Shown here: positions 5,185 to 62,067 of the stretch, one piece after another | Layout of the letters: every line of letters begins with the position of its first letter | How positions within the stretch are numbered: position 1 is the first letter of the stretch | DNA from: Thiocapsa rosea | GTDB lineage: Bacteria; Pseudomonadota; Gammaproteobacteria; Chromatiales; Chromatiaceae | DNA: 64,000 nt | NCBI RefSeq assembly: GCF_003634315.1 | Contig: NZ_RBXL01000001.1 | Span: 3,390,501 to 3,454,500 of the forward strand | Direction: 5' to 3' | Translations under genes and position numbers: made by a program | The notes under the pieces: generated by a model | Told to the model about the DNA's origin: nothing | Database searches by the model: none | What the model saw: only the letters and a program-made list of their open reading frames with translations

Positions 5185-5271
5185 TAAACCGCGCCTCACG
5201 CGGTATGCGAAATTTTCGGATGGGATCGGCCCCGGCAGAGTTGACGACCGATGGAGGCCGGCGCGGTTTAA
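5185..5271 (+). repeat. Repeat A, copy 1
   Basis: About 87 bp bounded by TAAACCGCG and CGCGGTTTAA, with the family core GGATGGGATCGGCCCCGG. Followed by a 23-base AT-rich spacer and repeat B copy 1, forming the composite A-spacer-B arrangement. Confidence 0.85.
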
Positions 5272-5294
5272 GAGATTAAAAAATAAATCATTTT

Positions 5295-5398
5295 GAACCG
5301 CCTCCCCGCGAATGGCCGTGGATGCACCAAACGTCGAGCTCACTCGTAAAGTGAGCATCTCGCTCTTAAAGTGAGCATCTCGCTCTGGACGCGGTTTA
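5295..5398 (+). repeat. Repeat B, copy 1, with internal duplication
   Basis: Repeat B carries the family core GTGAGCATCTCGCTC and ends GGACGCGGTTTA. In this copy about 20 bases including AAAGTGAGCATCTCGCTCT occur twice in tandem, making it longer than the usual 86 bp. The final TTA is the reverse complement of the TAA stop codon of the rep helicase gene. Confidence 0.85.
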
Positions 5399-7402
5399 GT
5401 CGACGTCGAGCATGCCTTTGAGCGCATGCAGATGGCTCAGGCCGCGGGCCTTGCGGTTCTCGGGGGTCTCCTGGCGCGCGTTGTCCCAGCACAGCTGATC
5501 CTTGGGCAGCTCGGAGAGGAATCGGCTGGGCTCGCTGGTCACCCACTCGCCGTAGCGTTTGCGCCGACGGGTGAGGGTGAAGGTGAGGGTGCGCTGGGCG
5601 CGGGTGATGCCGACATAGGCGAGTCGGCGTTCTTCCTCGATGGTCTCCTCTTCGATGCTGGTGCGGTGCGGGAGCAGCTCCTCTTCCATACCGACCAGGA
5701 AGACGTGGGGGAACTCCAGTCCCTTGGCGGCGTGCAGGGTCATGAGGCTGACTCGGTCGCCGCCTTCTTCCTCGTCCTGGCGCTCCATGACGTCCATCAG
5801 GGTGAGATGGCTTGCCATCTCGGCGAGGGACTTCTCCTGCAGCTCGCCCTTCTTGAGTGCGCCGAGCCAGTCGAGCAGATCGGTGATGTTGGCGTAACGG
5901 CGGTCGGCGACCGCCTGGCTGGAGGCGTGCTCGCGCAGCCAGGAGGCGTAGTCGATCGTCTCGACCAGGGTGCGCATGGTCCCGACCGGGTCGGTTTCGC
6001 CGCGACGGGCATGCTCGGAGACCAGCGCGGTGAAGGCGTGGAGGCGCTCGCGTTGGCGCTCGCTCAGGTGCTCGCCCAGCCCCAGCTCGCCGCAGGCATC
6101 CAGCAGGTGGATTCCTCGCTCGCGGGCATAGTTGGCGAGTTTCTCAAGGGTCGTCGGGCCGATCTCGCGGCGCGGGGTGTTGACGATGCGCAGGAAGGCA
6201 GCGTCGTCCTCCGGATTGGCGATCAGGCGCAGGTAGGCCATCAGGTCCTTCACCTCGGCGCGGGCGAAGAAGGAGGTGCCGCCGCTCAGGACATAGGGCA
6301 CGTTGTGCTCGCGCAGGGCCTTCTCGAAGGGGCGCGCCTGGTGGTTACCGCGATAGAGGATGGCGATGTCGCCGAAATCCGCCGCTTCGGCGAACTTCAG
6401 ATGCAGGATCTCGGAGACCACCTGCTCGGCTTCGTGGCCCTCGTCCTTGCAGTGCAGGACCCGCGGCGGCTCGCCCTGGCCGTGCTCGCTCCAGAGCCGC
6501 TTCTCGAAGACGTGCGGGTTGTTCGCGATGAGTGTATTGGCGAGTCCGAGGATGGTCGCGCTGGAGCGGTAGTTCTGCTCCAGCATGATGACCTTCAGAT
6601 GCGGGTAGTCGGTCTGCAGCCGGGCCAGGTTCTCGGGCCGTGCGCCGCGCCAGGCGTAGATGGATTGGTCGTCGTCGCCGACCACGGTGAAGGCCGCACG
6701 CGGGCCGACGAGCCGGCGCACCAGGTCGTATTGCGCCCCGTTGGTGTCCTGGTATTCATCGACCAGCAGATACCGGATCCGCCCTTGCCAGGTCTCGCGC
6801 AGCTCCGTGTGCTCGGCGAGCATCCGTGCCGGACCCAGGATGAGGTCGTCGAAGTCGACCGCGTTGTAGGCACGCAGACTGCGCTCGTAGTCGGCGTAGA
6901 ACGCGGCGAGTCGGGCCTCGAAGTCGTCTTCGGCCCGGCTGGCGGCCTGCGCGGGGTCGACTAAGTCGTTCTTCCAGCGCGAGATGCGGTGTTGGATGGC
7001 CGCCGGGCTGAAGGCATCGCCGCCTCTGGTGTGACGCAGGTGTTCCTTGATCAGCGCCTCGGCGTCCTGGGCGTCGAGCAAGGAGAAGCGCGGGCGCAGC
7101 CCGGCGTGCTCCGGGTGTCGACGCAGCATGTCGAGCCCAAGCGTGTGGAAGGTGGAGATCGTCAGGCCGCGTGTCTGCGCACCCCTGATCTGGCTGCCGA
7201 CCCGCTCGCGCATTTCCCGAGCCGCCTTGTTGGTGAAGGTGAGTGCGCAGATGTGGCGCGGCGAGATCCCGCCTTCGCCGATGAGGTGGGCGATCTTGCG
7301 GGTGATCACCCGTGTCTTGCCGGATCCGGCGCCGGCCAGGACCAGAAGCGGCCCGGCGGTGTAGTGCACCGCCTCGAGTTGTCGGGGGTTGAGTCCGGTC
7401 AT
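5396..7402 (-). CDS. rep: ATP-dependent DNA helicase Rep, 668 aa
   Basis: Superfamily 1A 3'-5' helicase of the UvrD/Rep group that helps forks pass protein roadblocks. Visible motifs: Q motif LNPRQLEAV, Walker A GAGSGKTR (about 24-31), Walker B LLVDEYQDTN (about 215), motif III VVGDDDQSIYAWRGA, motif VI VGITRAQRTL near residue 590. The phrase ARHICALTFTNKAAREM-type and ISTFHTLGLDMLRR region are closer to Rep than to UvrD, and the length fits Rep (about 670). The ATG at 7402 opens directly with MTGLNPRQ. The stop codon is supplied by repeat B. Confidence 0.95.
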   Translation of the reverse strand: MTGLNPRQLEAVHYTAGPLLVLAGAGSGKTRVITRKIAHLIGEGGISPRHICALTFTNKAAREMRERVGSQIRGAQTRGLTISTFHTLGLDMLRRHPEHAGLRPRFSLLDAQDAEALIKEHLRHTRGGDAFSPAAIQHRISRWKNDLVDPAQAASRAEDDFEARLAAFYADYERSLRAYNAVDFDDLILGPARMLAEHTELRETWQGRIRYLLVDEYQDTNGAQYDLVRRLVGPRAAFTVVGDDDQSIYAWRGARPENLARLQTDYPHLKVIMLEQNYRSSATILGLANTLIANNPHVFEKRLWSEHGQGEPPRVLHCKDEGHEAEQVVSEILHLKFAEAADFGDIAILYRGNHQARPFEKALREHNVPYVLSGGTSFFARAEVKDLMAYLRLIANPEDDAAFLRIVNTPRREIGPTTLEKLANYARERGIHLLDACGELGLGEHLSERQRERLHAFTALVSEHARRGETDPVGTMRTLVETIDYASWLREHASSQAVADRRYANITDLLDWLGALKKGELQEKSLAEMASHLTLMDVMERQDEEEGGDRVSLMTLHAAKGLEFPHVFLVGMEEELLPHRTSIEEETIEEERRLAYVGITRAQRTLTFTLTRRRKRYGEWVTSEPSRFLSELPKDQLCWDNARQETPENRKARGLSHLHALKGMLDVD

Positions 7403-7576
7403 GCAGGAACCTGTGGGGTCGAGACGATCGGGTCCTCGCGACGCGCGAGGCCGCCTCCGGTCGGGGCCGACAACGATACCCTATCGGCCCCGGTCGAGCG
7501 CATGTCCGAATGAGGCAATCCGGGTGCGTTCGTACTACCATGCAGATCTTTCAAACGACGGTGAGGTGGTGGTCCC

Positions 7577-10018: not shown

Positions 10019-10215
10019 ACGGAAACCGGTGCCAAAGCGCGTTCAGCGCGGTTCTCGAGTGCGTCGCGTTGACTGCGACCTCGCGGGCCGTCGGGCCGGC
10101 TGAAAAGGACGACTGCAAGTCGTCTATCCGGGGGTGTCGCCGCTTCGCGACGACCGTTGGCGTCACTTCCGACCCATCGTCTGCGCAGTTGGGATGTTGA
10201 TTCCCGCAAGTTACC

Positions 10216-10300
10216 TTAACCCGCGTCCTCGCTAAGGGCTGCGGATGCACCAGATGTCGAAATCACTCGAAAATGAGCCTCTCGCTCTGGACGCGGTTGA
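10216..10300 (+). repeat. Repeat B, copy 2 (solitary)
   Basis: Starts TTAACCCGCGTCC and ends GGACGCGGTTGA, with the core ATGAGCCTCTCGCTCTGG. No repeat A partner is next to it. Its right 38 bases are translated, on the minus strand, as the last residues of the PilZ protein. Confidence 0.85.
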
Positions 10301-11767: not shown

Positions 11768-11854
11768 TTAAACCGCGCCCAGCGTGGTATGCGATGTTTT
11801 TGGATGGGATCGGCCCCGGCAGACTTAACAATCGCTGGAGCCGGCGCGGTTTAA
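11768..11854 (+). repeat. Repeat A, copy 2
   Basis: Close to the family consensus: TTAAACCGCGCCCAGCG at the left, core TGGATGGGATCGGCCCCGGC, right end GGCGCGGTTTAA. Joined by a 21-base AT-rich spacer to repeat B copy 3. Confidence 0.9.
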
Positions 11855-11875
11855 AATACTCAAAACTCTAATATT

Positions 11876-11961
11876 TTAATCCGCGTCCCGCTTAAGGGTC
11901 TTGGATTCACCAAACGCCGAGTTCACTCGAAAATGAGCATCTCGCTCTCGACGCGGTTTAA
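11876..11961 (+). repeat. Repeat B, copy 3
   Basis: Left end TTAATCCGCGTCCCGC, core AAAATGAGCATCTCGCTC, right end CGACGCGGTTTAA. Together with repeat A copy 2 it makes a 194-bp composite. Confidence 0.88.
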
Positions 11962-12076: not shown

Positions 12077-12170
12077 TAATCTAAATCGCGCATTGCCGCT
12101 CGTTGCGTGTAAAGCCGAGCCTTCGCGCACCCGCATCCGACACACATCACCCCGGGCGCGATTTAGATTA
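12077..12170. repeat. Variant inverted-repeat element at the polA stop codon
   Basis: A perfect 15-bp inverted repeat, TAATCTAAATCGCGC at 12077-12091 and its complement at 12156-12170, encloses 64 bases. The ends resemble repeat A/B ends (AAACCGCG) with two changes and 4 extra outer bases. The outer TTA at 12168-12170 is the reverse complement of the polA TAA stop. Confidence 0.75.
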
Positions 12171-23900: not shown

Positions 23901-23980
23901 GATGGCGGCTCCCGACGTCCGCAACCGTCGGCAGGGCGTCGTCTCAAGAACCCTTTCACATAGGCGTTCCTGATTTAACT

Positions 23981-24026
23981 CGTGACACCGCTCCGCGGTG
24001 TCACGCATCTACTAGCGCTCCGCGCC
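23981..24026 (+). repeat. REP sequence, left of the RAYT gene
   Basis: A 25-base palindrome, GTGACACCGC-TCC-GCGGTGTCAC with flanks, is followed after about 9 bases by a smaller GC palindrome ending GCGCTCCGCGCC. Bipartite REPs of this kind are substrates of RAYT transposases. The copy at 24685-24730 is in opposite orientation. Confidence 0.85.
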
Positions 24027-24041
24027 CCGTCCGAGAACGGA

Positions 24042-24575
24042 TCACCAATCCCTGAAGACCTCGACCAACCCCGCGCGCCCGGCATAGCAGCGCGCGCTCG
24101 ACCAGCGCCAATGCTCCGGATCAACCACAAAACCCCTCTTCACCGGATTGTTGTGGATGTACTCCAGCTTCTGTCTCAACATGACATCCCCCTCGATGCA
24201 TTCCGGATGCGATCCCTCTTGCCGGAGCTGATACGAGCGATCGCTGCGTCTCGCCTTGAACGTGAACCCCATGCGATCCAACAGCCGTCTTGCGCCCTGC
24301 TCCTTGAGCAGATCGATGAGGTTCCGGGCCGAGTAGGATTTGAAGCGCTTCCAGACATCCGGCAGGTTTGGTGCCTGCGCCACCGCATGCAGGTGGTTTT
24401 CCAGCACGACGAAGCCGTAGATGCGAAGCGCAGCATGCTCCTGCAGGTATGACCAAGAGTCGAACACCACTTGCGCGGTTTCGGGTCGAGTGAAAATGGG
24501 CAGCCATTCGACGACGGTACACGTCAAGAAATGTGGGTGCTCCTGCGAGGCGAAACGGTAGCGTGTCCGAGCCAT
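24042..24575 (-). CDS. REP-associated tyrosine transposase (RAYT), 177 aa
   Basis: IS200/IS605-like Y1 transposase of the single-copy RAYT group. The metal-binding HxH reads GFVVLENHLHAVAQ (about 60) and the catalytic Tyr is in QKLEYIHNNPVKRGFV (about 138), a RAYT signature. The N terminus FLTCTVVEWLPIF is typical. The gene lies between inverted REPs at 23981 and 24685, the usual RAYT-REP arrangement, and probably maintains and spreads these REPs. The C terminus (HWRWSSARCYAG) is complete. ATG 24575 starts MARTRYRF. Confidence 0.9.
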   Translation of the reverse strand: MARTRYRFASQEHPHFLTCTVVEWLPIFTRPETAQVVFDSWSYLQEHAALRIYGFVVLENHLHAVAQAPNLPDVWKRFKSYSARNLIDLLKEQGARRLLDRMGFTFKARRSDRSYQLRQEGSHPECIEGDVMLRQKLEYIHNNPVKRGFVVDPEHWRWSSARCYAGRAGLVEVFRDW

Positions 24576-24684
24576 TGGCGCTCCGTGGATATATCGTTTC
24601 GTGTACTCTACTCGAATGTTTGCTTCGTTGTGAACTGCATCTTGACTCCCGGCGTTTCAGCCTCCGATCGTCTCCTCTGCACGT

Positions 24685-24730
24685 GGCGCGGAGCGCCAGT
24701 AGAGGCGTGACACCGCGGAGCGGTGTCACG
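24685..24730 (-). repeat. REP sequence, right of the RAYT gene (inverted)
   Basis: Reverse complement of the left REP: GGCGCGGAGCGCC then GTGACACCGCGGAGCGGTGTCAC. Its last base is directly followed by the putative 5' end of group II intron 1. Confidence 0.85.
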
Positions 24731-25228
24731 GTACGCCTGCAGAGGCGTTTCAACAGTACGGTGAAAGTCCGTATCGGGGCAAGCCATAACCCCGTAGCCG
24801 AAGGTTACTGCGTCGCCGCGAGGCGGGGTGGGGAGCAACCGGAGGCGAACGACCAGTCCGTAGGATGACGAACCCGTTTCGGTGTTCGGTGGTGGCGAGC
24901 CTGCCGTGACATGGCGAAGCCTGAAACGCACCGCTCACGCTGACATGGCGCCCAAAGCGATGAGTGGACCACCGGGTATGTTTGGGGATGGAATGGTCGG
25001 AAGGTGAAACGAGAGAAGCAGGGAGACCTGCCCGCGGAGGTGACCGGGGGCAGGAGTCAGAGTCCTCGTAGTACCGCACGTACGCTCGGACAACCAGGGC
25101 CATCGGCTGGAAACGGCCGATCCTCGAGACACCGGGGCGCAGACCCTGCCTACCGTTGAGACCGGGTACGGAAAAGCGCGGAAAGCAAAGCCGCGTCGAG
25201 GGAAGGGGGATAGGAAGAGCGATCTGGA

Positions 25229-25290
25229 ATGACCAGAGCGATGCAGCAAAACAGAGCAGTTTCGGCAGTGTCGGCAACGACTAACCTAAG
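25229..25290 (+). pseudogene. 5' fragment of the intron 1 reverse transcriptase gene
   Basis: ATG at 25229 opens MTRAMQQNRAVSAVSATTNL, the N-terminal leader of many group II intron maturases. The frame runs into the IS at about 25291. The RT body resumes beyond the IS at about 27392-27433 in sequence that reads RWAKRETDTRSWQW before the conserved RT-0 region. Confidence 0.7.
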
Positions 25291-27391: not shown

Positions 27392-27432
27392 GATGGGCTA
27401 AACGTGAGACAGACACCCGCTCTTGGCAGTGG

Positions 27433-28680: not shown

Positions 28681-28697
28681 GGAAACGCTCGACCGGA

Positions 28698-28729
28698 GAG
28701 CCGTATGCGGGAGAACCGCACGTACGGTT
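28698..28729 (+). ncRNA. Group II intron 1, domain V
   Basis: GAGCCGTATGCGG-GAGA-ACCGCACGTACGGTT folds as the 32-34-nt catalytic hairpin with the AGC triad at its base and a GNRA-type loop. It is followed at once by GTGTG, the 5' end of another intron, and not by domain VI. Confidence 0.85.
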
Positions 28730-29243
28730 GTGTGTCCAGCGAAGGCTGGCGTGTTCAGCAGGAGACAGTCCTGCCGGGGTAACAGTCAGGAGCCCCGTAG
28801 CTTGGATCGCAGGGTGGCGGGAGACCAAGACTCTGAAGCCGATCGACAGCACCTTCCTTGGGGAGGTGGCGAGTCACCAGGCCGTAACAACAGTGAACGC
28901 AATGATGGCCTCGACAATGCGTAGCTCCGAAGGCCGAGCCTGCAACCGTGGGGCGAAGGCAGCATGGCGGGTCGAAATCTGACCGAGACGATCCGACCAC
29001 TTCGGCGGGGTGAGTAGCGACGGCATGGTGGCAAGGGCACGCTAAGCAACTGGAGAAGCCCGTCTCGCCCCGGGGCGAAATCCCCGGAGCAAGGTAGGTC
29101 TTATAACCGGCGACACCGGGAAGTGGACCGAAGGCGAGCGGGTGGCGGATGGGCGCGTAGTAGCGCTGAAGCGGGGTAATGTCCGTGGAGCGAAGGCGCC
29201 CTACTGTTGGCAATCCTTGAACAAGATGGGAGGCAGGGGCGAG

Positions 29244-30555: not shown

Positions 30556-30576
30556 CCCTGGATGTGAAGTCGGCAG

Positions 30577-30859: not shown

Positions 30860-30898
30860 ACGTGCTACGCAGATCGACCATGCGTTGACACGCAGGAG

Positions 30899-35151: not shown

Positions 35152-36779
<1,628 letters not shown>

Positions 36780-36800
36780 GATATCGGAAAATATATCATT

Positions 36801-36886
36801 TTAAACCGCGTCCCCGCTAAGGGCCGTGGAAGCACGAGACGTCGAGCTCACTCGAAAATAAGCATCTCGCTCTGGACGCGGTTCAG
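36801..36886 (+). repeat. Repeat B, copy 4
   Basis: TTAAACCGCGTCCCCGC at the left, core AAAATAAGCATCTCGCTCTGG, right end GGACGCGGTTCA. Forms a 194-bp composite with repeat A copy 3. Confidence 0.88.
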
Positions 36887-41148: not shown

Positions 41149-41235
41149 TTAAACCGCGCCCAGCGCGGTACGCGATGGTCTTGGATGGGATCGGCCCCGG
41201 TGGATTTGACGACCGCTGGAGCCGGCGCGGTTTAA
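41149..41235 (+). repeat. Repeat A, copy 4 (solitary)
   Basis: TTAAACCGCGCCCAGCG left end, core TTGGATGGGATCGGCCCCGG, right end GGCGCGGTTTAA. No repeat B follows. It lies upstream of the dsbA-like gene, i.e. at a 5' and not a 3' gene end. Confidence 0.88.
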
Positions 41236-42588: not shown

Positions 42589-43446
42589 GATCTCGTCCGG
42601 CTCTATCCTGGTGTGCGCGCCGTGGATGGTATCGGTTTTCTTGTCGAAGCCGGTCAGTGTTTCGGACTCTTGGGACCGAACGGGGCCGGAAAGACGACGA
42701 CCTTGGAGATGCTGGAGGGGATCCAGACCCCGACCTCGGGCACCGTACTGTATCGTGGTCGGCCGCTCGACCGCGCCTATCGCGAATCCGTCGGCATCCA
42801 GTTTCAGGCGACCGCGCTGCAGGATTTTCAGACGGTGCGCGAGTCGCTGACCATGTTCGCCAGCCTCTACCGGCGCACCGCGGACCGCGACGAGCTCATC
42901 CGGCTCTGCAATCTCGCGGAGATCCTGGATCGGGATACGCGCAAGCTCTCGGGTGGTCAGCGTCAGCGGCTGCTCTTGGCGATCGCCTTGGTCAACGATC
43001 CTGACCTGGTGTTTCTCGACGAGCCGACAACGGGTCTGGATCCGCAGTCCAGGCGTAATTTCTGGGGTCTGATCGAGACGGTGCGTCGGCGCGGCAAGAC
43101 GATCGTGCTGACCACACATTATATGGAAGAGGCCGAGCGGCTCTGCGATCGGATCGCGATCGTCGACCACGGGCGGATTATCGCCGAGGGTCAGCCTGCG
43201 CGTTTGGTTCGGGATCATTTTCCGGCAACCGTGATTCGCCTGCCCGAGTCCGCGTGGCCCGTCGGGGCTGCGCTTCCACCGACCGCGGAGCGACGCGACG
43301 GGACCATCGAGCTTTTTGCCGAGGAGGTTCCGCCGATGTTGGCCGAGATCGAGCGTGTGGGGGCCGATCTAACGAATCTGCGGGTGGCGACGCCGAATCT
43401 TGAAGACCTCTTTTTGAAACTGACCGGACATGATCTGCGCTCTTAA
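42565..43446 (+). CDS. ABC-2 exporter ATPase subunit, 293 aa
   Basis: Walker A GLLGPNGAGKTTTLEMLEG (about 37), Q-loop QFQATALQDFQTV, signature KLSGGQRQRL (about 130), Walker B LVFLDEPTTGLD (about 150) and switch His TTHYMEEAERL. The C-terminal extension fits drug/daunorubicin-type ATPases (CcmA/DrrA group). GTG start. The stop TAA is part of repeat A copy 5, and the permease follows only after the A-B composite, 280 bases downstream. Confidence 0.94.
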   Translation: MNILLEAHDLVRLYPGVRAVDGIGFLVEAGQCFGLLGPNGAGKTTTLEMLEGIQTPTSGTVLYRGRPLDRAYRESVGIQFQATALQDFQTVRESLTMFASLYRRTADRDELIRLCNLAEILDRDTRKLSGGQRQRLLLAIALVNDPDLVFLDEPTTGLDPQSRRNFWGLIETVRRRGKTIVLTTHYMEEAERLCDRIAIVDHGRIIAEGQPARLVRDHFPATVIRLPESAWPVGAALPPTAERRDGTIELFAEEVPPMLAEIERVGADLTNLRVATPNLEDLFLKLTGHDLRS

Positions 43447-43530
43447 ACCGTGCCCGGCGCGGTACGCGATGTTTTTGGGATTGGATCGGCCTGGGCAGAC
43501 TTCATAGTCGCTGGAGGATGCGCGGTTTAA
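43443..43530 (+). repeat. Repeat A, copy 5, inside the ABC operon
   Basis: CTTAAACCGTGCCCGGCG left end, core TTTTTGGGATTGGATCGGCC, right end GCGCGGTTTAAG. The ATPase stop TAA (43444-43446) lies in its left end. A 20-base AT-rich spacer follows. Confidence 0.87.
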
Positions 43531-43550
43531 GATATTGAAAAAGATATTAT

Positions 43551-43637
43551 TATAAGCCGCGTCCCCGCCAAAGATCGTGAATACACCAATTGTCGATCTC
43601 ACTCGATAATGCGCGTCTCGTACTGGACGTGGTTTAG
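43551..43637 (+). repeat. Repeat B, copy 5, inside the ABC operon
   Basis: TATAAGCCGCGTCCCCGCC left end, core TAATGCGCGTCTCG (diverged), right end GGACGTGGTTTAG. More diverged from consensus than other copies. Confidence 0.82.
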
Positions 43638-45527: not shown

Positions 45528-45654
45528 CGAACGAACACGACAACGAGTCAATCCTTCGACCAATTTTCCTGGTTGCGGCTCTGCCGGTGGATCCTTTTCC
45601 GGAAATCACCAAGGCGATTTCCGGGAATCAACATCTCAACGGCGTAGACGATCG

Positions 45655-45695
45655 GCCGGAAGTGACGCCAACGGTCGCCGCTTCGCGACGCTGCT
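45655..45695. repeat. Short palindromic segment shared with 10.1 kb
   Basis: CGGAAGTGACGCCAACGGTC followed by GCCGCTTCGCGACG is nearly identical to the reverse strand of about 10140-10180 (GTCGGAAGTGACGCCAACGG). A low-copy intergenic repeat. Confidence 0.5.
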
Positions 45696-45774
45696 TCCGG
45701 CCGATCGGATGTGCGGCGCCGTTAGCCTTGGGCGAACCGTCGAAGCATTTTTTGGTGTCGTCCGGAATCCGATT

Positions 45775-45864
<90 letters not shown>

Positions 45865-46031
45865 ACGACCACGAGTAGGGGTGCCAGTCGTGTCGGGTCT
45901 CGCGAGGCGCAACCATCCGCCTACGGTAGTTGTGCTTCCGATCGTCAGCACAACTGATTACGGGTATGGAGTTTCCCGGAAATCACATGACCCATCAAAA
46001 ACGTGTCAAGCCCCCGCCGCAAACGTCCGAC

Positions 46032-49049: not shown

Positions 49050-50114
49050 ATGAAGAAGCGAATGATCGCTTTAGCCGTCTCGGTGGGGCTCGCCGCAACC
49101 GTGGCCGCTGCGGATGACTCGGCTCTGCGCGACAAGGCCAAGTCTGCCGGACTGCTCCCGATCCCTGCCGGCGTGCCCGAGGTGGCCGGCAATCCCGTGA
49201 CGCGCGAAAAGGTCGATCTCGGTCGCATGCTGTTCTTCGACCCCCGGCTTTCGGCCAGCGGGGTCATTAGCTGCAACACCTGTCACAACCTCGGCATGGG
49301 CGGCGACGACAACCTGCCGACCTCCGTCGGACATGGTTGGCAAACGGGTCCGCGCAACTCCCCGACCGTGCTCAATGCCGTGTTCAACATCGCTCAGTTC
49401 TGGGACGGTCGCGCGGATGATCTCAAAGAGCAGGCCAAAGGCCCGATTCAGGCCGGCGTAGAGATGGCGAACGATCCCGAGAACGTGGTCGTCACGCTCA
49501 AGAGCATGCCCGAGTATGTCGAGCGCTTTACCAGGGCGTTCCCGAACGAGGCGGATCCGGTGACCTTCGACAACATGGCTAAAGCGATCGAGGCCTTCGA
49601 GGTGACCCTGGTGACGCCCGGATCGCCGTTCGATGACTGGATCGAAGGCAACGATGCGGCCATGACGGACGAGCAAAAGCAGGGTCTGGATCTCTACATC
49701 GAAAAGGGCTGCAGTGCCTGTCACGCGGGGATCAACTTCGGTGGTCAGGATTACTTCCCGTTCGGTCTGATCACCAAGCCCGGCGCCGACATCCTCCCCC
49801 CGGACGACAAAGGCCGCTTCGAGGTCACGAAGACGGCGTCCGACGAATACGTCTTCCGTGCCGCGCCGCTGCGCAACATCGCCTTGACGGCACCTTACTT
49901 TCACTCGGGTGCGGTTTGGGATCTAGGTGCGGCCGTCGCCCTGATGGGAACTGCACAGCTCGGGACCGAGATCTCCGATGCAGAGGCGGCGCAGATCGTC
50001 GCCTTCCTGCACGCGCTGACCGGAGAGCAGCCGAGGGTCGAGTATCCGATCCTGCCGGTCGAGACGGCCGAGACGCCAAGGCCGGACCTCTCTGCCTTGC
50101 CCGTTACGCATTAA
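49050..50114 (+). CDS. Di-heme cytochrome c peroxidase (MauG/CcpA family), 354 aa
   Basis: A signal peptide (KKRMIALAVSVGLAATVAAA) precedes two heme sites, CNTCH (about 75) and CSACH (about 221). LGRMLFFDPRLSASG, GHGWQTGPRNSPTVLNAVFN, FWDGRADDLKEQAKGPIQ and FRAAPLRNIALTAPYFHSG are typical of bacterial cytochrome c peroxidases, which reduce hydrogen peroxide in the periplasm using electrons from small c-type cytochromes. An AGGAAAA-type site precedes the ATG. The TAA stop lies in the AAACCGCG-type repeat at 50112. Confidence 0.93.
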   Translation: MKKRMIALAVSVGLAATVAAADDSALRDKAKSAGLLPIPAGVPEVAGNPVTREKVDLGRMLFFDPRLSASGVISCNTCHNLGMGGDDNLPTSVGHGWQTGPRNSPTVLNAVFNIAQFWDGRADDLKEQAKGPIQAGVEMANDPENVVVTLKSMPEYVERFTRAFPNEADPVTFDNMAKAIEAFEVTLVTPGSPFDDWIEGNDAAMTDEQKQGLDLYIEKGCSACHAGINFGGQDYFPFGLITKPGADILPPDDKGRFEVTKTASDEYVFRAAPLRNIALTAPYFHSGAVWDLGAAVALMGTAQLGTEISDAEAAQIVAFLHALTGEQPRVEYPILPVETAETPRPDLSALPVTH

Positions 50115-50207
50115 ACCGCGTCCGACGCGGTGCGCGTCGTTAGTTGGCTTGGCTGCGCCGGCTCCGACAACTGTCGGAGCCGGCGCAAGAGTCGCCGATG
50201 TCATGTT
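50112..50207. repeat. AAACCGCG-type palindromic sequence after the peroxidase gene
   Basis: Starts TTAAACCGCGTCCGACGCGG and contains a strong hairpin GCCGGCTCCGACA-ACT-GTCGGAGCCGGC at about 50158-50184. It resembles a diverged repeat A-like unit but lacks the GGATGGGATCGG core. It abuts repeat B (reverse) at 50208. The hairpin could terminate transcription. Confidence 0.6.
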
Positions 50208-50294
50208 CTAAACCGCGTCCAGAGCGAGATGCTCACTTTCAAGTGAACTCGACGTTTGGTACATCCACGGCCCTTAGCGGGAACGCGGTTTAAA
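50208..50294 (-). repeat. Repeat B, copy 6 (reverse orientation)
   Basis: Reads CTAAACCGCGTCCAGAGCG, core GAGATGCTCACTTTCAAGTG, end GGGAACGCGGTTTAA, i.e. the complement of the other B copies. An AT-rich spacer and a decayed A follow, so composite order is kept. Confidence 0.88.
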
Positions 50295-50318
50295 AGAATA
50301 TAATTTTTAATATGTTAC

Positions 50319-50370
50319 CCCGCTCCTGCTCCAGCGGACATCAAGTCTGCCGAGGCCGACCCGCTCCGAT
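50319..50370 (-). repeat. Decayed repeat A (reverse orientation)
   Basis: CTCCAGCGGACATCAAGTCT followed by GCCGAGGCCGACCC matches the complement of the repeat A right half with several substitutions. It lies 24 AT-rich bases from repeat B copy 6, the expected composite spacing. Confidence 0.6.
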
Positions 50371-51492: not shown

Positions 51493-51969
51493 ATGAAAGG
51501 TAACCCCGAAGTCATCGCCCATCTTCAGCGCCTGCTCTCCAACGAGCTGGCAGCGATCGATCAGTATTTCATCCACTCGCTTATGTACGAGGACTGGGGT
51601 TTCGCGAAGCTGTTTGCGCGCATCGAGCACGAGGCAACGGAGGAGAAGGAGCATGCCTCGATGCTGATCCGGCGAATGCTGTTCTTGGAGGCGACGCCGG
51701 ATCTGAGTCAGCGCGACGGCCTGCGCGTCGGCGCGAACGTTCCGGAGATGTTGGCCAACGATCTGCAGGTCGAGTACGAGGTGGCGGCCGCGTTGAAGGA
51801 GGCGATCGTCTGTTGCGAGCAGCACAAGGATTTCCAGACGCGCAGCGTTCTGCTGCAACTGCTCAGAGACACCGAGGAGGACCACGCCGATTGGCTCGAG
51901 CAACAACTGGGCTTGATCGATCGCGTGGGGCTCGAGAACTATCTCCAGTCGCAGATGCACCCGGCCTAA
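51493..51969 (+). CDS. bfr: Bacterioferritin, ferroxidase subunit lacking the heme Met, 158 aa
   Basis: Ferroxidase ligands are intact: Glu18 (SNELAAIDQYF), Glu51 and His54 (ATEEKEHAS), Glu94, Glu128 and His131 (RDTEEDHADW). The heme-coordinating Met is replaced by Lys52, so it probably cannot bind heme in a homodimer. Twenty-four bases separate it from the first bfr, with GGAG before the ATG. Alpha/beta bacterioferritins with this split of duties are known in Neisseria and Magnetospirillum. The TAA stop overlaps a partial repeat A. Confidence 0.94.
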   Translation: MKGNPEVIAHLQRLLSNELAAIDQYFIHSLMYEDWGFAKLFARIEHEATEEKEHASMLIRRMLFLEATPDLSQRDGLRVGANVPEMLANDLQVEYEVAAALKEAIVCCEQHKDFQTRSVLLQLLRDTEEDHADWLEQQLGLIDRVGLENYLQSQMHPA

Positions 51970-51990
51970 ACCGCGCCCGGCTCGGTTTCG
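51966..51990 (+). repeat. Partial repeat A at the bfr stop codon
   Basis: CTAAACCGCGCCCGGCTCGG matches the first 20 bases of repeat A; the rest is lost. The bfr stop TAA is at 51967-51969. Confidence 0.7.
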
Positions 51991-52236
51991 GTCGAACCTG
52001 ATCCTCCGTCGGCAATCGGTCGGAGGATCAATGAGAATGGACACCCCGCAGCCGGGCGTTCGCCCGGTGTCTCGGTCCTCCAGAAGGGCCGGTACTCGAA
52101 AAAACGCGGCATCGAGCCCCGAGGCGGGTCGGTGACAAGCGTAGAGTCCAGCCATACAATCCCCCGCAGTCTTTGGGGAGACGCCCATCCGCGGCGTCTC
52201 CCGCCTTCAACGTCGGTCTGTCGGGAGAAGACATCT

Positions 52237-52928: not shown

Positions 52929-53070
52929 CACAAGGACAGCAAGTCAGTCCGAACGTTCCGGGACATAAGGAACGCTAGCGTGTTTCGTGGAGGTAGTCGG
53001 TGCCACGGAGGTCTGCCCCCCGATCGATGTCGGCGGCGCATTTACTCATTCTCACGACGGAGCTTAAACC

Positions 53071-53214
53071 ATGGCTGAGCAAGCAAGCCTTTCGGGTTTA
53101 ACCGAGCAGCAGGCGAAAGAGTTTCACGAGCAGTTCAAGGTCACCTACACCGCATATGTCGGCCTCGCCGCGCTGGTGCATCTGTTCATCATTGCAGCTA
53201 ACCCCTGGTTCTAA
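53071..53214 (+). CDS. pucB: LH2 beta chain 1, 47 aa
   Basis: Light-harvesting 2 beta polypeptide: a polar N terminus (LSGLTEQQAKEFHEQFKVTY) and one membrane helix with the BChl-ligand His in LAALVHLFIIAANPWF. It pairs with an alpha chain to bind BChl a and carotenoid in ring-shaped antennae of the inner membrane. GGAG lies about 10 bases before the ATG, and pucA follows after 12 bases. First gene of pucBABA block 1, behind the promoter at 52897. Confidence 0.95.
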   Translation: MAEQASLSGLTEQQAKEFHEQFKVTYTAYVGLAALVHLFIIAANPWF

Positions 53215-53226
53215 GAGGAGAGACCC

Positions 53227-53421
53227 ATGAACGTATTCGACTACAAACCTCTTGAGCAGGACTATCGCATTTGGCTGGTGCTGAACCCCGCGACGTGGCT
53301 GATCCCGATGTTCGCCGCACTGCTGGTCATCGCCCTTGCCGTTCACGTCTACGCCTTCTCGCTGCCGGGCAACGCTTGGACGCCGGCTGCTCCGGTCGCC
53401 GTGGAAGCACCTGCTCAATAA
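53227..53421 (+). CDS. pucA: LH2 alpha chain 1, long type, 64 aa
   Basis: Alpha polypeptide: short N terminus (NVFDYKPLEQDYRIWLVLNP), membrane helix (ATWLIPMFAALLVIALAVHV) with the BChl-ligand His, and a 20-residue periplasmic tail rich in Pro and Ala (AWTPAAPVAVEAPAQ). AGAGGAGA precedes the ATG. The tail is longer than in the second alpha type at 53654, so the block encodes two different alpha chains with nearly one beta sequence. Confidence 0.95.
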   Translation: MNVFDYKPLEQDYRIWLVLNPATWLIPMFAALLVIALAVHVYAFSLPGNAWTPAAPVAVEAPAQ

Positions 53422-53484
53422 GACACTTGGTTGCCGCTTTCTGAAACGGCACCGTATTTACACCTCTCTATCGGAGATACATCG

Positions 53485-53625
53485 ATGGCCGAGCAATCCT
53501 TGTCGGGTTTGACCGAACAACAAGCGAAGGAATTCCACGAGCAGTTCAAGGTCACCTACACCGCGTATGTTGGTCTTGCCGCGCTGGTGCACCTGTTCAT
53601 TATCGCTGCCAATCCTTGGTTCTAA
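53485..53625 (+). CDS. pucB: LH2 beta chain 2, 46 aa
   Basis: Differs from beta chain 1 only at the N terminus (MAEQSLSG instead of MAEQASLSG); the remaining 38 or so residues are identical in protein though not in DNA. ATG 53485 follows CGGAGA at 9 bases. An in-frame extension to 53431 lacks a start signal. Confidence 0.94.
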   Translation: MAEQSLSGLTEQQAKEFHEQFKVTYTAYVGLAALVHLFIIAANPWF

Positions 53626-53653
53626 TTAACCCGATCACGACGAGAACAAGATC

Positions 53654-53812
53654 ATGAGCGAAATCGCAAAACCGAAAAACCCGGAAGACGATTGGAAGGT
53701 GTGGCTGGTTCTGAACCCCGCAACCTGGCTGATGCCGATCTTCTTCATGCTGTTGGTCATCGCGCTGGTGCTGCACGCCGTCGTGTTCCAGATGGGATTC
53801 GGCTGGGCTTGA
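53654..53812 (+). CDS. pucA: LH2 alpha chain 2, short type, 52 aa
   Basis: SEIAKPKNPEDDWKVWLVLN, then the helix PATWLMPIFFMLLVIALVLH with the ligand His, and a short tail ending MGFGWA. Too short to appear as a long frame, but it begins after ACGAGAAC and is spaced 28 bases from beta 2. Differing C-terminal residues near the His can shift BChl absorption, so two alpha types may make spectrally different LH2 rings. Confidence 0.93.
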   Translation: MSEIAKPKNPEDDWKVWLVLNPATWLMPIFFMLLVIALVLHAVVFQMGFGWA

Positions 53813-53853
53813 TGCCTGCGAGTGCCGGGGCTTCCGTCGAGTAGCCCCGAGGA

Positions 53854-53885
53854 CGATGGGCCGGCGCCGCACGGCGCGCCCATCG
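53854..53885. terminator. Hairpin after LH2 block 1
   Basis: CGATGGGCCGGCGCCG and CGGCGCGCCCATCG form a long GC stem around CA, 41 bases after the alpha 2 stop. No T run follows. A near-identical hairpin follows block 2 at 55341. Confidence 0.65.
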
Positions 53886-54186
53886 TCGACGGCGGATGGT
53901 GAGCGGCAGAAACGCCGCTCTCATCCGCCGTATCCTGTCTGGGGCTGTCCTGGCCTGGCTGAAAACGATCGACTTCCTCCCGATCGCCTGTACGAAATCC
54001 TCTTCCGTCCGCCTCCTCTGCTCTACCGCCTTCATGCATCCGAAATCGTTGCCCGATGTTCGGCGCCCTCCTGCCGGCGGCTCTCCCTCTCGGTCTCGAT
54101 GGCCGGTATCCAGAGTCTTCTTCCGCGCCTTGCCGAACAAGGAATCCCGCGCGTGATGCGCGCCAAGGGCAGCGCAACCGCCGGAT
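53886..54186. other. Gap between LH2 blocks, no gene supported
   Basis: About 300 bases with an 86-codon open frame (from 53896) that has no start signal and no recognisable domain. Probably non-coding. Confidence 0.35.
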
Positions 54187-54271
54187 CTAAACCGCCTCCC
54201 CGCCAAGGGCCGCGGAGGCACCAAGCGTCGAACCCACGCGAAAGTGAGCATCTCGCTCTGGACGCGGTTGA
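54187..54271 (+). repeat. Repeat B, copy 7, between the LH2 blocks
   Basis: CTAAACCGCCTCCCCGCC left end, core AAAGTGAGCATCTCGCTCTGG, right end GGACGCGGTTGAGG. No repeat A partner. It lies in the non-duplicated part between the two blocks. Confidence 0.87.
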
Positions 54272-54384
54272 GGTTCAAGCCTGGTGCTGCTCCGCCCGCT
54301 TGGTGCGCGGAATATCTAAAACACTGAAAAATATATAAGTATTTTCTTTTGCGACTTCTCGGCAAAGATATTTGTCTAATCTTC

Positions 54385-54416
54385 TTGACATTGTCAGATG
54401 TAAAGCTAAGATGACA
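54385..54416 (+). promoter_or_regulatory. LH2 promoter 2 with PpsR/CrtJ-type site
   Basis: TTGACA (54385-54390), 16-base spacer, TAAGAT (54407-54412). TGT at 54399-54401 and ACA at 54414-54416 again give TGT-N12-ACA. The segment AAGCTAAGATGACACACAAG is shared with promoter 1 while the flanks differ. Confidence 0.7.
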
Positions 54417-54557
54417 CACAAGATCTCTGGTCAATTTGAAATTTTGAAGCCCGACGAGATCGGGATCAGAGAATCGGGTGGCAGTCAATGCATCCATGTC
54501 GCCGACCGTTTCCATCGAAGCGGCGGTATCAGCAGCCCCTATCATGGAGTTCAAACC

Positions 54558-54701
54558 ATGGCCGAACAGGCAAGCGTTTCGGGTCTAACCGAGCAGCAGG
54601 CGAAAGAGTTTCACGAGCAGTTCAAGGTCACCTACACCGCATATGTCGGCCTCGCCGCGCTGGTGCATCTGTTCATCATTGCAGCTAACCCCTGGTTCTA
54701 A
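54558..54701 (+). CDS. pucB: LH2 beta chain 3, 47 aa
   Basis: First gene of pucBABA block 2. The protein differs from beta chain 1 only at one N-terminal residue (ASVSG instead of ASLSG). From about base 54585 the DNA is almost identical to block 1, so the two sequences diverge only in the first nine or so codons and upstream. Confidence 0.95.
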   Translation: MAEQASVSGLTEQQAKEFHEQFKVTYTAYVGLAALVHLFIIAANPWF

Positions 54702-54713
54702 GAGGAGAGACCC

Positions 54714-54908
54714 ATGAACGTATTCGACTACAAACCTCTTGAGCAGGACTATCGCATTTGGCTGGTGCTGAACCCCGCGACGTGGCTGATCCCGATGTTC
54801 GCCGCACTGCTGGTCATCGCCCTTGCCGTTCACGTCTATGCCTTCTCGCTGCCGGGCAACGCTTGGACGCCGGCTGCTCCGGTCGCCGTGGAAGCACCTG
54901 CTCAATAA
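54714..54908 (+). CDS. pucA: LH2 alpha chain 3, long type, 64 aa
   Basis: Identical in protein to alpha chain 1; a single silent change (TAC to TAT) was seen. Same spacing and ribosome-binding site as in block 1. Confidence 0.95.
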   Translation: MNVFDYKPLEQDYRIWLVLNPATWLIPMFAALLVIALAVHVYAFSLPGNAWTPAAPVAVEAPAQ

Positions 54909-54971
54909 GACACTTGGTTGCCGCTTTCTGAAACGGCACCGTATTTACACCTCTCTATCGGAGATACATCG

Positions 54972-55112
54972 ATGGCCGAGCAATCCTTGTCGGGTTTGAC
55001 CGAACAACAAGCGAAGGAATTCCACGAGCAGTTCAAGGTCACCTACACCGCGTATGTTGGTCTTGCCGCGCTGGTGCACCTGTTCATTATCGCTGCCAAT
55101 CCTTGGTTCTAA
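54972..55112 (+). CDS. pucB: LH2 beta chain 4, 46 aa
   Basis: Identical to beta chain 2 in protein and, as far as I can see, in DNA, including the upstream 63 bases. Recent duplication or gene conversion. Confidence 0.94.
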   Translation: MAEQSLSGLTEQQAKEFHEQFKVTYTAYVGLAALVHLFIIAANPWF

Positions 55113-58901: not shown

Positions 58902-58988
58902 TTAAACCGCGTCCGGCGCGGTATGCGATGTTTTTGGATGGGATCGGCCCCGGCAGACGTGACGACCGCTGGAGCTGGCGCGGTTTAG
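58902..58988 (+). repeat. Repeat A, copy 6, at the hmuS-like stop
   Basis: TTAAACCGCGTCCGGCGCGG left end, core TTTTTGGATGGGATCGGCCC, right end GGCGCGGTTTAG. The right end supplies the TAA stop (TTA, 58985-58987) of the minus-strand gene, while its left end lies 13 bases from the start codon of the DUF2325 gene. Confidence 0.88.
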
Positions 58989-59965
58989 TCCTGAAGCGCG
59001 TTGACGAGGGTGCGCCAGATCGGATTCTCGATGGCGACGAATCCGGGCACCGAGCTGAGCTGCGCCAGCAGTCGGCCTTGCGCGTCGTAGAGACGGAGCG
59101 ACGTCTGCTCGTGCGCCGCTTCGGAGGCATTCAAGACCCAGGCTGAATCGATCTTCGAGGTGTCGATTCGCAAGCGCGCCGAGTCGCTGCGCAGGGTCTG
59201 CCAGACCCCGTCGCGTCGATGGCAGAAGAAGGCGCAATCAAGGGTGTGAGCGACCCCCGCCGTTCCGGTGGTGATGCGAACGGGCAGCGCCTGCTCTGCG
59301 AGCGCTTCGAGGAAACAGGGGACCAGCTCGGCGTCCACGGCGCTGGCACTACCGCGTTCACGCAGCCTTGCGGGATTGAGTCGGAACTGGCCTGTGGCTT
59401 CGGCCAGATCGGCGACATCGACCGAATCGCCAAGCTCCGCCATCAGTCTGCGAAACGGAACGCTGTCGAGCTCCGCACCATCCCCGTCGCGCTGCGGTGC
59501 CGGCTCGCACCACGAGGCTGCCCGACTGAGGGTACGGCATCGGGTCAGGACGTCCGAGCCGCGCACTCGACCCTCCTCGCCAAAACCGAGATCCAGCAGC
59601 GGAGCGCCCTCCCGATCCAGGATGGAGATGTCCGAGCGCGGTCCTTGTTCAGCCGCATCCGTCCCCGAGCCATCGATGTGAGACCAGCGATCAAGCACCA
59701 TCCGAAGCGTGAACCGGCGGCCCGAAGCGATCCCGAAGGAGTCGTCGATACGGACCCCCGGCCAATTGCCATGGTGCTCCAACGTGACGGCCGGCTGGCT
59801 GGTCCCGATACGGAGCTGTCCGGCACCGACAAGCTCCCGGAGGAATGCAGTCCAATCACGGACCTTGCCCGCGGTGTTTCCCTGTTCCGCTCCCAAGGAG
59901 GGTGCTCGGGAGGCCGGCATGACGGCTGCACTCGGCATATGTTCAAGCTCGATGTAGGGCGGCAT
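58985..59965 (-). CDS. HmuS/HemS-like heme-handling protein, 326 aa
   Basis: The C-terminal half follows the HmuS repeat closely (LPVRITTGTAGVAHTLDCAF, RRDGVWQTLRSDSARLRIDT, IDSAWVLNASEAAHEQTSLR, LYDAQGRLLAQLSSVPG). The N-terminal half carries the weaker first repeat (RFTLRMVLDRWSHI, ISILDREGAPLLDLG). HmuS proteins bind cytosolic heme and open or pass on the ring to release iron. The key first-repeat His was not identified, so activity is uncertain. AAGGAG precedes ATG 59965. It lies near hemP and two Fur-like boxes. Confidence 0.7.
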   Translation of the reverse strand: MPPYIELEHMPSAAVMPASRAPSLGAEQGNTAGKVRDWTAFLRELVGAGQLRIGTSQPAVTLEHHGNWPGVRIDDSFGIASGRRFTLRMVLDRWSHIDGSGTDAAEQGPRSDISILDREGAPLLDLGFGEEGRVRGSDVLTRCRTLSRAASWCEPAPQRDGDGAELDSVPFRRLMAELGDSVDVADLAEATGQFRLNPARLRERGSASAVDAELVPCFLEALAEQALPVRITTGTAGVAHTLDCAFFCHRRDGVWQTLRSDSARLRIDTSKIDSAWVLNASEAAHEQTSLRLYDAQGRLLAQLSSVPGFVAIENPIWRTLVNALQD

Positions 59966-60024
59966 TGCGCACTCCTTGATTGATTCCGGAAGGTCGGCGG
60001 ACTCGCATAGGGGCGAGGCCCTGT

Positions 60025-60285
60025 TCAATGCGCGACGGTTGCCGCTCTTTGTGCGAGCCAGCGCCAATGACGCGCCAGTCGGCGATAGGCACAAAACCGT
60101 TCGGCATCGGACCCGAGATCAGGATGAAGGTAGAGCGCCTCGATGGATTCGACGACCCGTTCGGCCAGATCGGCCGACCGATGCCGAACGTAACGGCGAA
60201 TGAGCTCTCCGAGATGCATCTCCAGATCCTCCGGTTTGAGCCGAGCGAGATCGGAGTGTGAAGCCAAGGGGGAATCGACGGGCAT
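60025..60285 (-). CDS. Small Fur-box-linked protein, 86 aa
   Basis: A helical, Arg-rich protein (LEMHLGELIRRYVRHRSADL, CAYRRLARHWRWLAQRA). AGGAG lies 8 bases before the ATG. The Fur-like palindrome 177 bases upstream and the hmuS-like gene 60 bases downstream suggest one iron-controlled unit. I do not recognise a functional family. Confidence 0.7.
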   Translation of the reverse strand: MPVDSPLASHSDLARLKPEDLEMHLGELIRRYVRHRSADLAERVVESIEALYLHPDLGSDAERFCAYRRLARHWRWLAQRAATVAH

Positions 60286-60580: not shown

Positions 60581-60645
60581 CTAAACGGCGCCAGGCGCGG
60601 TCGAACTCACGCGAAAGTGAGCATCTCGCTCTGGACGCGGTTTAG
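60581..60645 (+). repeat. A/B hybrid repeat, 65 bp
   Basis: The left end CTAAACGGCGCCAGGCGCGG is repeat A-like; the right part GTGAGCATCTCGCTCTGGAC with CGCGGTTTAGG is repeat B. The inner halves are missing, as if A and B recombined within a composite. Confidence 0.75.
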
Positions 60646-60646
60646 G

Positions 60647-60677
60647 TTGACACGCCTGCGTAATATCTTTTTACAAT
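60647..60677 (+). promoter_or_regulatory. Possible porin promoter
   Basis: TTGACA at 60647-60652 and TACAAT at 60672-60677 with a 19-base spacer, slightly long for sigma70. It starts 2 bases after the hybrid repeat and lies about 115 bases before the porin ATG. Confidence 0.35.
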
Positions 60678-60792
60678 AGATCATACGATCGGGCAGCGGC
60701 ATCGACGCCGGCAGGTAGGTTCAGCGTCCGAGTACCTCGAATCGCAAACCCTCCGGAACTCCCCAAACCTCCTTTAAGGACACCTCATTTCC

Positions 60793-61968
60793 ATGGACAA
60801 TCGCTTGGCCTTAGGCGCTGTGCTCTCCTGTCTCACCCTGTCCGCGAATGCCTACGATGTCACCGACAGTTTCTCGATCGGCGCGGTGTTGGGCGCGGCG
60901 GGTCAATGCCAGGAGGGCCTGGGCGGGCTGGTCGACGAGGACGGGCAGTCGCTGGGCGGCAACAGCTGCCGGGGCGGCATGCCGTTTCAGCTTGAATTGA
61001 GCGTTCGCCCGAGCGAGCGCGACGAGTTCTTCGCCCTGTTCGGTTTTGCCGTGGACAACGGCCTGAACGCCGTCTCGCCCTTCGTGCTCGCCCCCTGGGC
61101 GGTCGATCTCGAGGACGATCTGAAGGACATCAACGGGCGCGGGCGCGACTACCTGCTGCAGGCCTGGTACAAGCACACCTTTACGCTGGCCGAGGACGCC
61201 ACCCTCGGGGCGACCTTCGGCATCATCGACTCCACCGGGTATCTGGACGAGAACGCCTACGCCAACGACGAATTCACCCAGTTCATGAACGAGGCGTTCG
61301 TAAACTCCGGCGGCTTCAATCTGCCGTCCTACGATGCAGGCGCGGCACTCGAGCTGGCGCTGGGGGACTGGGAGATCAAGGCCGCGGCGCTGAACATCGG
61401 CGAGAACGACGACGGCAACAACTACAACTTCTGGGGCGCGCAGGTCGGCTATCGTCTCGACACCGCGCTCGGGGAGGGCAACTACCGCGCCGTGATCACC
61501 GGCACCTCCTCGGCCTTCTTCAGGCCCAGCGCCGACCTCGGCGAGGCAGCGGAGTGGACCGAGGACGCACCGCAGGACGGCGCGCCGGTCGCCGCGCAGA
61601 AGACCGATCTGATGGGCTACGGCCTGTCCTTCGACCAGGCCCTCGGCGATCATCTCGGCGCCTTCCTGCGCCTGGGCTGGACCGACCATAAAGACATCCT
61701 CGACTACCGCGGGCTCTACACCGGCGGACTGCAGCTCGGCGGCGGTCTGTGGGGCCGCGAGGCCGACACCGTCGGCATTGCCTACGGCTATCTCGACGGC
61801 GCCAACACCGGGATCTCCAACACCAACGTCGCCGAGCTCTACTACCGCTTCGCCGCCAACGACTTCCTCGCCCTCACCGCCGACATCCAATACATGGCCG
61901 ACGCCTACGACAGCGGCGAGGACATCGAGGGCTGGATCTTCGGGTTGCGTCTGGTGGCGGAGCTTTGA
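60793..61968 (+). CDS. OprB-like carbohydrate-type porin, 391 aa
   Basis: A short signal peptide (LALGAVLSCLTLSANA) precedes an outer-membrane barrel with many alternating strands and aromatic belts (LLQAWYKHTFTLAEDATLGA, FWGAQVGYRLDTALGEGNYR, NVAELYYRFAANDFLALTADIQYM). The C terminus GWIFGLRLVAEL is a terminal strand of OprB type, though it ends in Leu and not Phe. OprB proteins pass sugars, but members in metal-linked operons are thought to pass other solutes. AAGGACAC precedes the ATG. It leads the DUF4198/NikL-like pair. Confidence 0.82.
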   Translation: MDNRLALGAVLSCLTLSANAYDVTDSFSIGAVLGAAGQCQEGLGGLVDEDGQSLGGNSCRGGMPFQLELSVRPSERDEFFALFGFAVDNGLNAVSPFVLAPWAVDLEDDLKDINGRGRDYLLQAWYKHTFTLAEDATLGATFGIIDSTGYLDENAYANDEFTQFMNEAFVNSGGFNLPSYDAGAALELALGDWEIKAAALNIGENDDGNNYNFWGAQVGYRLDTALGEGNYRAVITGTSSAFFRPSADLGEAAEWTEDAPQDGAPVAAQKTDLMGYGLSFDQALGDHLGAFLRLGWTDHKDILDYRGLYTGGLQLGGGLWGREADTVGIAYGYLDGANTGISNTNVAELYYRFAANDFLALTADIQYMADAYDSGEDIEGWIFGLRLVAEL

Positions 61969-61978
61969 TGAAACCGCG

Positions 61979-62067
61979 ATGAAACCGCGTCCGGTGGCGT
62001 CATGTCCTGTTGTCGGGCTGTTCCACCTTGCAGGCATCAACGAGCGTCGGAGTCGACGCGGTTTCAT
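61979..62067. repeat. Variant inverted-repeat element after the porin gene
   Basis: ATGAAACCGCGTC at 61979-61991 and its exact complement at 62055-62067 enclose 63 bases unlike repeat A or B cores except CGTCGGAG. It starts 10 bases after the porin stop; GATGAAACCGCG occurs twice in a row at 61967 and 61978. Confidence 0.75.

Follow-up and report, generated by a model that had tools for sequence, protein, structure and literature searches.

According to PMC2229807, RUP of pneumococcus is a short intergenic repeat of 107 bp with 9-bp terminal inverted repeats (TIRs), a TA target and ends resembling those of IS630-Spn1; its mobilization in trans has been proposed, and copies have also been found inside insertion sequence (IS) elements. 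Elements such as this, a TA-targeting miniature inverted-repeat transposable element (MITE) whose ends are those of an IS630, are thus already known, with RUP and IS630-Spn1 as the model (PMC2229807). Here we describe the A-spacer-B (A-B) repeat of Thiocapsa rosea, analyzed in a 64,000-nt stretch of contig NZ_RBXL01000001.1 (positions 3,390,501 to 3,454,500; hereafter the window). By description, RUP with IS630-Spn1 is the closest known system: both repeats are short and intergenic, target TA and have IS630-like ends, and the A2-B2 copy that we found inside the terminal repeat of an IS630 relic recalls the RUP copies within IS elements. Unlike RUP as described there, A-B is ~193 bp long, has two exchangeable arms with inner copies of the tip and resides in another host group, and no close transposase was found in its host genome.

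Two further families are comparable by their descriptions in the same source. The Correia/NEMIS repeats of Neisseria (107 or 155 bp) have TIRs, TA at the termini and a target duplication, and ERIC/IRU/RU-1 is a 127-bp repeat with TA termini and a target duplication (PMC2229807). Correia/NEMIS resembles A-B as a small multicopy repeat with TIRs and TA termini, but the available text of PMC2229807 mentions no two-arm unit with inner tip copies, nor does it mention an IS630 partner for ERIC. In the accessible portions of the open-access literature, including PMC10969869 and PMC4853749 and excluding most subscription papers, we found no report of the family, nor of a two-arm unit with inner tips, arm exchange or a stop-codon excess. 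A-B is very likely an IS630-derived MITE: its outer ends carry the terminal repeat of an IS630 clade, it inserts at TA and it has moved since the species split, presumably mobilized in trans. An orphan repeat family is thereby linked to one particular transposase clade, and a single locus preserves the different insertion states across three species.

Insertion sites and IS630-like ends

Loci of the genome holding the window (G000) were compared with those of two sister genomes (G001 and G002). The window region is collinear between G000 and G001 in inverted order. When 44 G000 loci were placed in G001 by their flanks, 14 lacked the element, 9 had it and 21 had no usable synteny; reciprocally, 48 G001 loci fell in G000 into 6 without the element, 10 with it and 32 without synteny. 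Comparison of junctions with small gaps among the three genomes gave seven empty sites that we judged clear, and at each of them one genome or more carries an entire A-B as the insert. The empty site is TA in four cases (129078, 255016 and 178942 of the G001 sample, and the window 5185 locus, empty in G002) and lies one base off TA in three (369552 of the G000 sample; 39588 and 324013 of the G002 sample). These comparisons show that the unit integrates at TA in its entirety and is then flanked by TA on either side; the relatives therefore contain the empty sites, and the copies the target duplication, that characterize a MITE. The 5185 locus displays three states, namely A-B in G000, A alone between the same flanks in G001, and an empty TA in G002. 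Furthermore, the G001 copies at 129078 and 255016 are 99.5% identical and both are missing from G000, and the family has therefore moved since the species split.

An IS630 element with matching ends was found in G007, a genome of the same genus, and its clade also occurs in other purple sulfur bacteria. It spans 1277 bp between the ends TAAACCGAGCCTAGCCCGAGATACGTAATTTTT and TAAACCCCGCCCAGAGCGGGATACGTAATTTT, and its 317-residue frame scores as an IS630 transposase (NF033545, 155 bits with a cut-off of 100; PF13358, 76 bits with a cut-off of 28.6). Ends matching the G007 element at 24 or more of 32 positions occur at 25 of 49 named IS630 loci, G007's own included, in Allochromatium, Imhoffiella, Thiocystis, Halochromatium, Thiorhodospira, Thiodictyon, Rhabdochromatium, Thiorhodococcus and one alphaproteobacterial bin; 19 Endozoicomonas loci and five others among the 49 fell below this match. 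At five of the 25, one being G007's own copy, both ends are present with TA on each side, placing a family transposase between terminal repeats and TA as is characteristic of IS630.

Searching 11 genomes of the genus with the DNA of the G007 element retrieved, besides that element, one decayed G001 fragment (72% over 155 bp) and seven terminal stretches of 34-50 bp in G000, G003, G008 and G009 (80-90% identical, best E 3.9e-7). Five of these stretches are the ends of two-arm units, and the other two display an end only. The outer consensus of B (positions 10-25) scored 0.80 against the transposase-upstream IS630 end and 0.59 against the downstream end. The inner arm ends matched IS630 ends poorly (0.28-0.47), the IS630 repeat being absent past the first ~9 bases. 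A-B thus possesses the homologous terminal sequence by which an IS630-derived MITE is recognized. In the IS630 relic of G001, the element's own terminal repeat is broken at TA by the A2-B2 copy.

Members of the IS630/Tc1/mariner superfamily transpose by cut and paste at TA. By analogy, an IS630-family transposase would act in trans on the outer ends of A-B, cutting and pasting the unit at TA. In the window's genome this mobilizer was presumably lost or decayed, and the copies there are probably immobile now. A transposase search of G000 found only IS630s at about 26% identity, and with only such distant transposases at hand the family appears to be an orphan in this genome. The recent movement in G001 would have used a transposase that has since been lost, was not assembled or was not recognized. 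Other IS630s of the genus were rejected as the mobilizer: the test could read ends at 8 of 30 loci, these being TACCTCATATAGGC-like or GTGCTGC-like, and at none of the remaining 22. In nine additional stretches from G000 and G001, no IS630-clade end lay outside a two-arm repeat, apart from the G001 relic. The first-pass annotation had proposed a non-autonomous family whose mobilizer is elsewhere or lost and had asked for orthologous loci with and without copies; the empty sites, the TA target and the IS630 with matching ends outside G000 support this proposal.

Anatomy of the unit and its copies

A-spacer-B is a single unit of ~193 bp in which an A arm of ~86 bp, an AT-rich spacer of ~21 bp and a B arm of ~86 bp follow one another, the arms being inverted relative to each other and 84-88 bp long by profile. 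The consensus of each arm starts with TAAACCGCG and finishes with CGCGGTTTA; TA and TAAACCGCG occur at each end of both arms, with copies of the tip also inside the unit. The unit has the features of the MITE class: it is short and multicopy, with inverted outer ends and no internal transposase. Within the window, the A core matched seven times and the B core nine times at up to three mismatches, against 0.29 and 0.14 expected from shuffles, and independent repeat finding retrieved the A family, the B family and the inverted pairs formed with the reversed copy, confirming that the interspersed family is real. The arms had been thought to share their ends and to differ in their cores. Indeed, the consensus interiors alone align marginally, 29 of 2000 shuffles being equally good, but over its full length A can be aligned with B in reverse complement (best E within the window, 3e-5), mainly in the outer half, which corresponds to the IS630 terminal repeat.

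The copies in the window are as follows.

5185-5398, plus strand: A-spacer-B whose B arm has a 20-bp internal duplication (profile); its right end serves as the TAA terminating open frame 5396-7402 (minus)
10216-10299, plus strand: solo B arm (profile); absent in G001, where altered flanks leave the junction unreadable
11768-11960, plus strand: A-spacer-B, A1-B1 (profile)
36693-36884, plus strand: A-spacer-B, A1-B1 (profile); no element at the corresponding place in G001
41149-41235, plus strand: solo A arm (profile); empty in G001 and G002, junction unreadable to the base
43443-43636, plus strand: A-spacer-B (profile); common to G001, absent in G002
50111-50186, plus strand: A2-type arm (profile); left end is the TAA stop of 49050-50114 (plus), a di-haem peroxidase (CCP_MauG)
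50209-50370, minus strand: reversed A-spacer-B whose A arm lacks the outer ~31 bases (profile and inverted pairs)
51966-51992, plus strand: A outer-tip remnant of ~25 bp (by eye, below the profiles); gives open frame 51493-51969 its TAA stop
54188-54270, plus strand: solo B arm (profile)
58902-58987, plus strand: solo A arm (profile); common to G001; its right end serves as the TAA terminating open frame 58985-60094 (minus)
60581-60646, plus strand: deletion hybrid of ~19 bp of the A outer end and the outer 45 bp of B (profile)
61982-62064, plus strand: divergent arm (A profile, 23 bits)

The profiles thus recovered the joined copies of the first-pass annotation (5185, 11768, 36693, 43443 and, reversed, 50209-50370) and its solo arms (10216, 41149, 54188 and 58902), and defined its hybrid at 60581 as A outer ~19 bp plus B outer 45 bp. 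The partial copy at 51966 is visible by eye as ~25 bp of an A tip, although no profile reached the site. The A2-type arm at 50111-50186 and the divergent copy at 61982-62064 are additional to the earlier list. Three other repeats were also noted: 300-bp direct repeats of 97% identity, 1487 bp apart, have a solo B arm between them (53059-55112); an 80-bp inverted pair (10138-10217 and 45611-45690, 83%) is not recognized by the arm profiles; and a repeat with ends like GGYGATTTC...GAAATCRCC adjoins or interrupts some A-B units (L248, L268 and several G000 and G001 flanks).

The order A then B and the spacer length had been described as kept even in the reversed copy. Across the three genomes, 50 of 53 two-arm groups do have A then B on the same strand, but the remaining three are B2-B2 inverted pairs, and compound loci with more than two arms occur. 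Adjacent arms are separated by 19-22 bases in a 464-kb sample of G000 around the window, with the sole exception of 1 base at the duplication in the 5185 copy. By profile, the 49 complete A-B units of the three genomes comprise 30 A1-B1, 9 A1-B2, 8 A2-B2 and 2 A2-B1. Of these units, 33 entered a 44-row alignment together with 11 from other genomes; on visual inspection its motif-based arm classes (19, 18, 5 and 2) put at least one row (L116:2083) in the wrong class, and the profile classes were used. In G001, one A arm is paired with B1 (129078 and 255016) and with B2 (178942), and exchange of arms has therefore taken place, probably via the spacer. Units of mixed arms offer a natural experiment on the features of a MITE that are recognized by its transposase.

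Besides the 49 A-B units, the three samples contain 36 solo A and 9 solo B arms. Some solo arms keep the spacer or remnants of B, which shows that they are remnants of A-B. A tree was built of 69 A arms, comprising all 49 from A-B and the 20 of 36 solo A with a profile score of at least 45. It was poorly resolved, and on it the solo and A-B labels required 17 changes against 17.5 when shuffled, and 234 of 500 shuffles were as low. As the labels do not cluster and remnants are retained, the solo arms look to be mostly A-B derivatives, which would have arisen mainly by deletion between directly repeated tips (CGCGGTTTA or TAAACCGCG). Thirty-five partial matches in the sampled DNA were inspected by eye for split elements with distant half-arms, and no pair flanked a gene.

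Alternatively, A and B might be two independent MITEs of ~86 bp with the same tips, each mobile alone and composite when paired. The TA plus TAAACCGCG at each end of both arms, the free combination of arm types and the existence of solo arms, with solo A in excess, are what such elements would leave. We nevertheless consider this origin unlikely, given that every readable empty site corresponds to a complete A-B in one or more genomes, that the IS630 repeat does not extend beyond the first ~9 bases of the inner ends, and that the solo arms are dispersed across the tree of A arms.

Gene 3′ ends and the weighing of origins

Both ends of the IS630-derived unit read TAAACC inwards, so that insertion at the TA of a TAA or TAG codon restores TAA. 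An element end forms the stop codon of a gene at 38 of 107 loci, some of which are common to more than one genome, compared with 316 of 3489 intergenic TA sites (9.1%; p 5.5e-14); the individual genomes gave 13/43, 14/40 and 11/24 (p 5e-5, 5e-6 and 6e-6). In a hand count that set aside remnants and other repeats, 15 stop-codon loci had a relative without the element. Thirteen of them stop at the identical codon in at least one such relative and two in none; for one locus among the 13, a further relative without the element terminates three codons later. The element-free codon of the 13 is TAA or TAG in 7 and TGA in 6; stops of frames of at least 200 codons are TGA in 406, TAG in 138 and TAA in 98 cases. 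Sites with TGA would require either a subsequent change or a non-TA target; in the comparison made for TGA use, the flanks proved much diverged. A frame of at least 456 codons terminates in a TAA provided by the G007 IS630 itself, and insertion at window 51966 created a new stop where the G001 frame reads on.

Selection, target preference or both would give this excess, and the data do not separate them. The simplest account would be that TA-containing stops are struck and selection retains these insertions, because they keep the protein unchanged. A rebuilt stop codon would be a simple reason for a TA-targeting element to build up hundreds of copies where genes are densely packed. It is also conceivable, although we put this forward only tentatively, that A-B is a modular gene-sparing MITE that rebuilds the stop in either orientation, uses its hairpin arms as exchangeable cassettes with inner tips kept across three genera, perhaps targets stops or transcript ends, and fills gene 3′ ends. 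If so, many genes would have gained new 3′ structure from a modular MITE.

Another explanation holds that the repeats are retained because they form functional structures, in RNA or DNA, at the 3′ ends of genes, such as terminators or mRNA stabilizers, mobility being secondary. Besides the excess at stops, the predicted RNA fold of one consensus is strong (-82.4 kcal/mol, z -4.6), and column 11 is paired within the arms in 91% and 88% of cases (C-G predominating in A, T-A in B), compared with 9% between the two outer ends. RNA and DNA folding parameters favor different consensus folds. However, two-sided change occurs at only 3 of 27 predicted pairs; pairing is thus not upheld by compensation after insertion, the copies decay, and they are often absent in sister species. 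Selection of an RNA structure after insertion was dropped as unsupported by these few compensatory changes, and retention for 3′-end structure is improbable as the basis of the family.

Least probable are repetitive extragenic palindromic (REP)-like palindromes in bacterial interspersed mosaic elements (BIMEs) or REPINs, spread by a Y1 transposase (REP-associated tyrosine transposase, RAYT) without target duplication: A-B shares with these the palindromic units, inverted pairs in alternating orientation, mosaic make-up and hundreds of copies, Y1 transposases are present in 11 of 11 genus genomes and a looser TGAACCGCGTC inverted pair lies about 1.3 kb from one Y1 gene in five loci of several genus members (L049, L053, L055, L065 and L067), but a profile arm lies near only 1 of 30 Y1 loci of these genomes, leaving 29 without a RAYT link, and the TA target, the IS630-like ends and arms of 84-88 bp do not fit a REP/BIME unit, a palindrome of 20-40 bp in the available text of PMC3733652.

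Several observations weigh against an IS630-derived MITE that rebuilds stop codons. Only seven empty sites are readable, three of which require a later change, and junctions at 41149, 60581, 311284, 70706 and 17736, among others, are unreadable to the base. The A outer end (0.66/0.65) prefers neither IS630 end. The genus genomes with repeats yielded no close intact transposase, so that it is the ends and the TA target that argue for mobilization in trans; the repeat-rich genomes G043 and G057 of other genera likewise gave no close transposase (23-28% identity), and G007 carries the IS630 yet has no A-B match. The excess of solo A over solo B is not explained by equal deletion. As for the stop codons, genes were called as the longest open frames, with no gene finder, and 6 of the 13 sites are TGA rather than TA in the element-free relative.

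Abundance and other repeats

The 464-kb G000 sample contains 46 loci by profile, making up 1.3% of its sequence; at this density the 6.1-Mb genome would hold about 600 loci. The family accounts for about 1.1-1.5% of the three sampled genomes. An A-B query gave at least 43 matches in G000, where 40 of 542 first-look candidates were scored. Extended to relatives, as the first-pass annotation had advised, it matched 9 of 11 genus genomes, G000 included, and none of 27 others; a plasmid search with one A-B copy as the query gave no match. A looser outer-end pattern matched 18 of 116 genomes of the family, a set including four of the genus, and its reversed control matched none. The pattern sites numbered 335 in G000, 125, 70 and 56 in three genus genomes, 58 in G043, 120 in G057 and 1-9 in the other 12 genomes. 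Among 18 stretches of G043 and G057 examined with the pattern, 10 are complete two-arm units of 191-193 bp, two of 353-354 bp have a further insert, one is a 101-bp deletion and five show one end only. The two-arm architecture is thus found in two other genera as well.

The window also contains other repeats and structured elements. A palindromic repeat, TAAATCGCGC...GCGCGATTTA, at 12077-12170 marks the 3′ end of polA; a similar sequence follows polA in G002, and it may be a second MITE family. The region 23979-30863 has group II intron matches (RF02001 at 24812 and RF02003 at 28756), a reverse transcriptase-maturase frame (27433-28680) and three copies of a ~50-bp palindromic repeat. Within 4850-5031 a tRNA-Arg (CCG) has a 70-bp partial duplication beside it (83%), and a CGACAA-type tandem array at 45758-45880 has an inverted counterpart near 45487.

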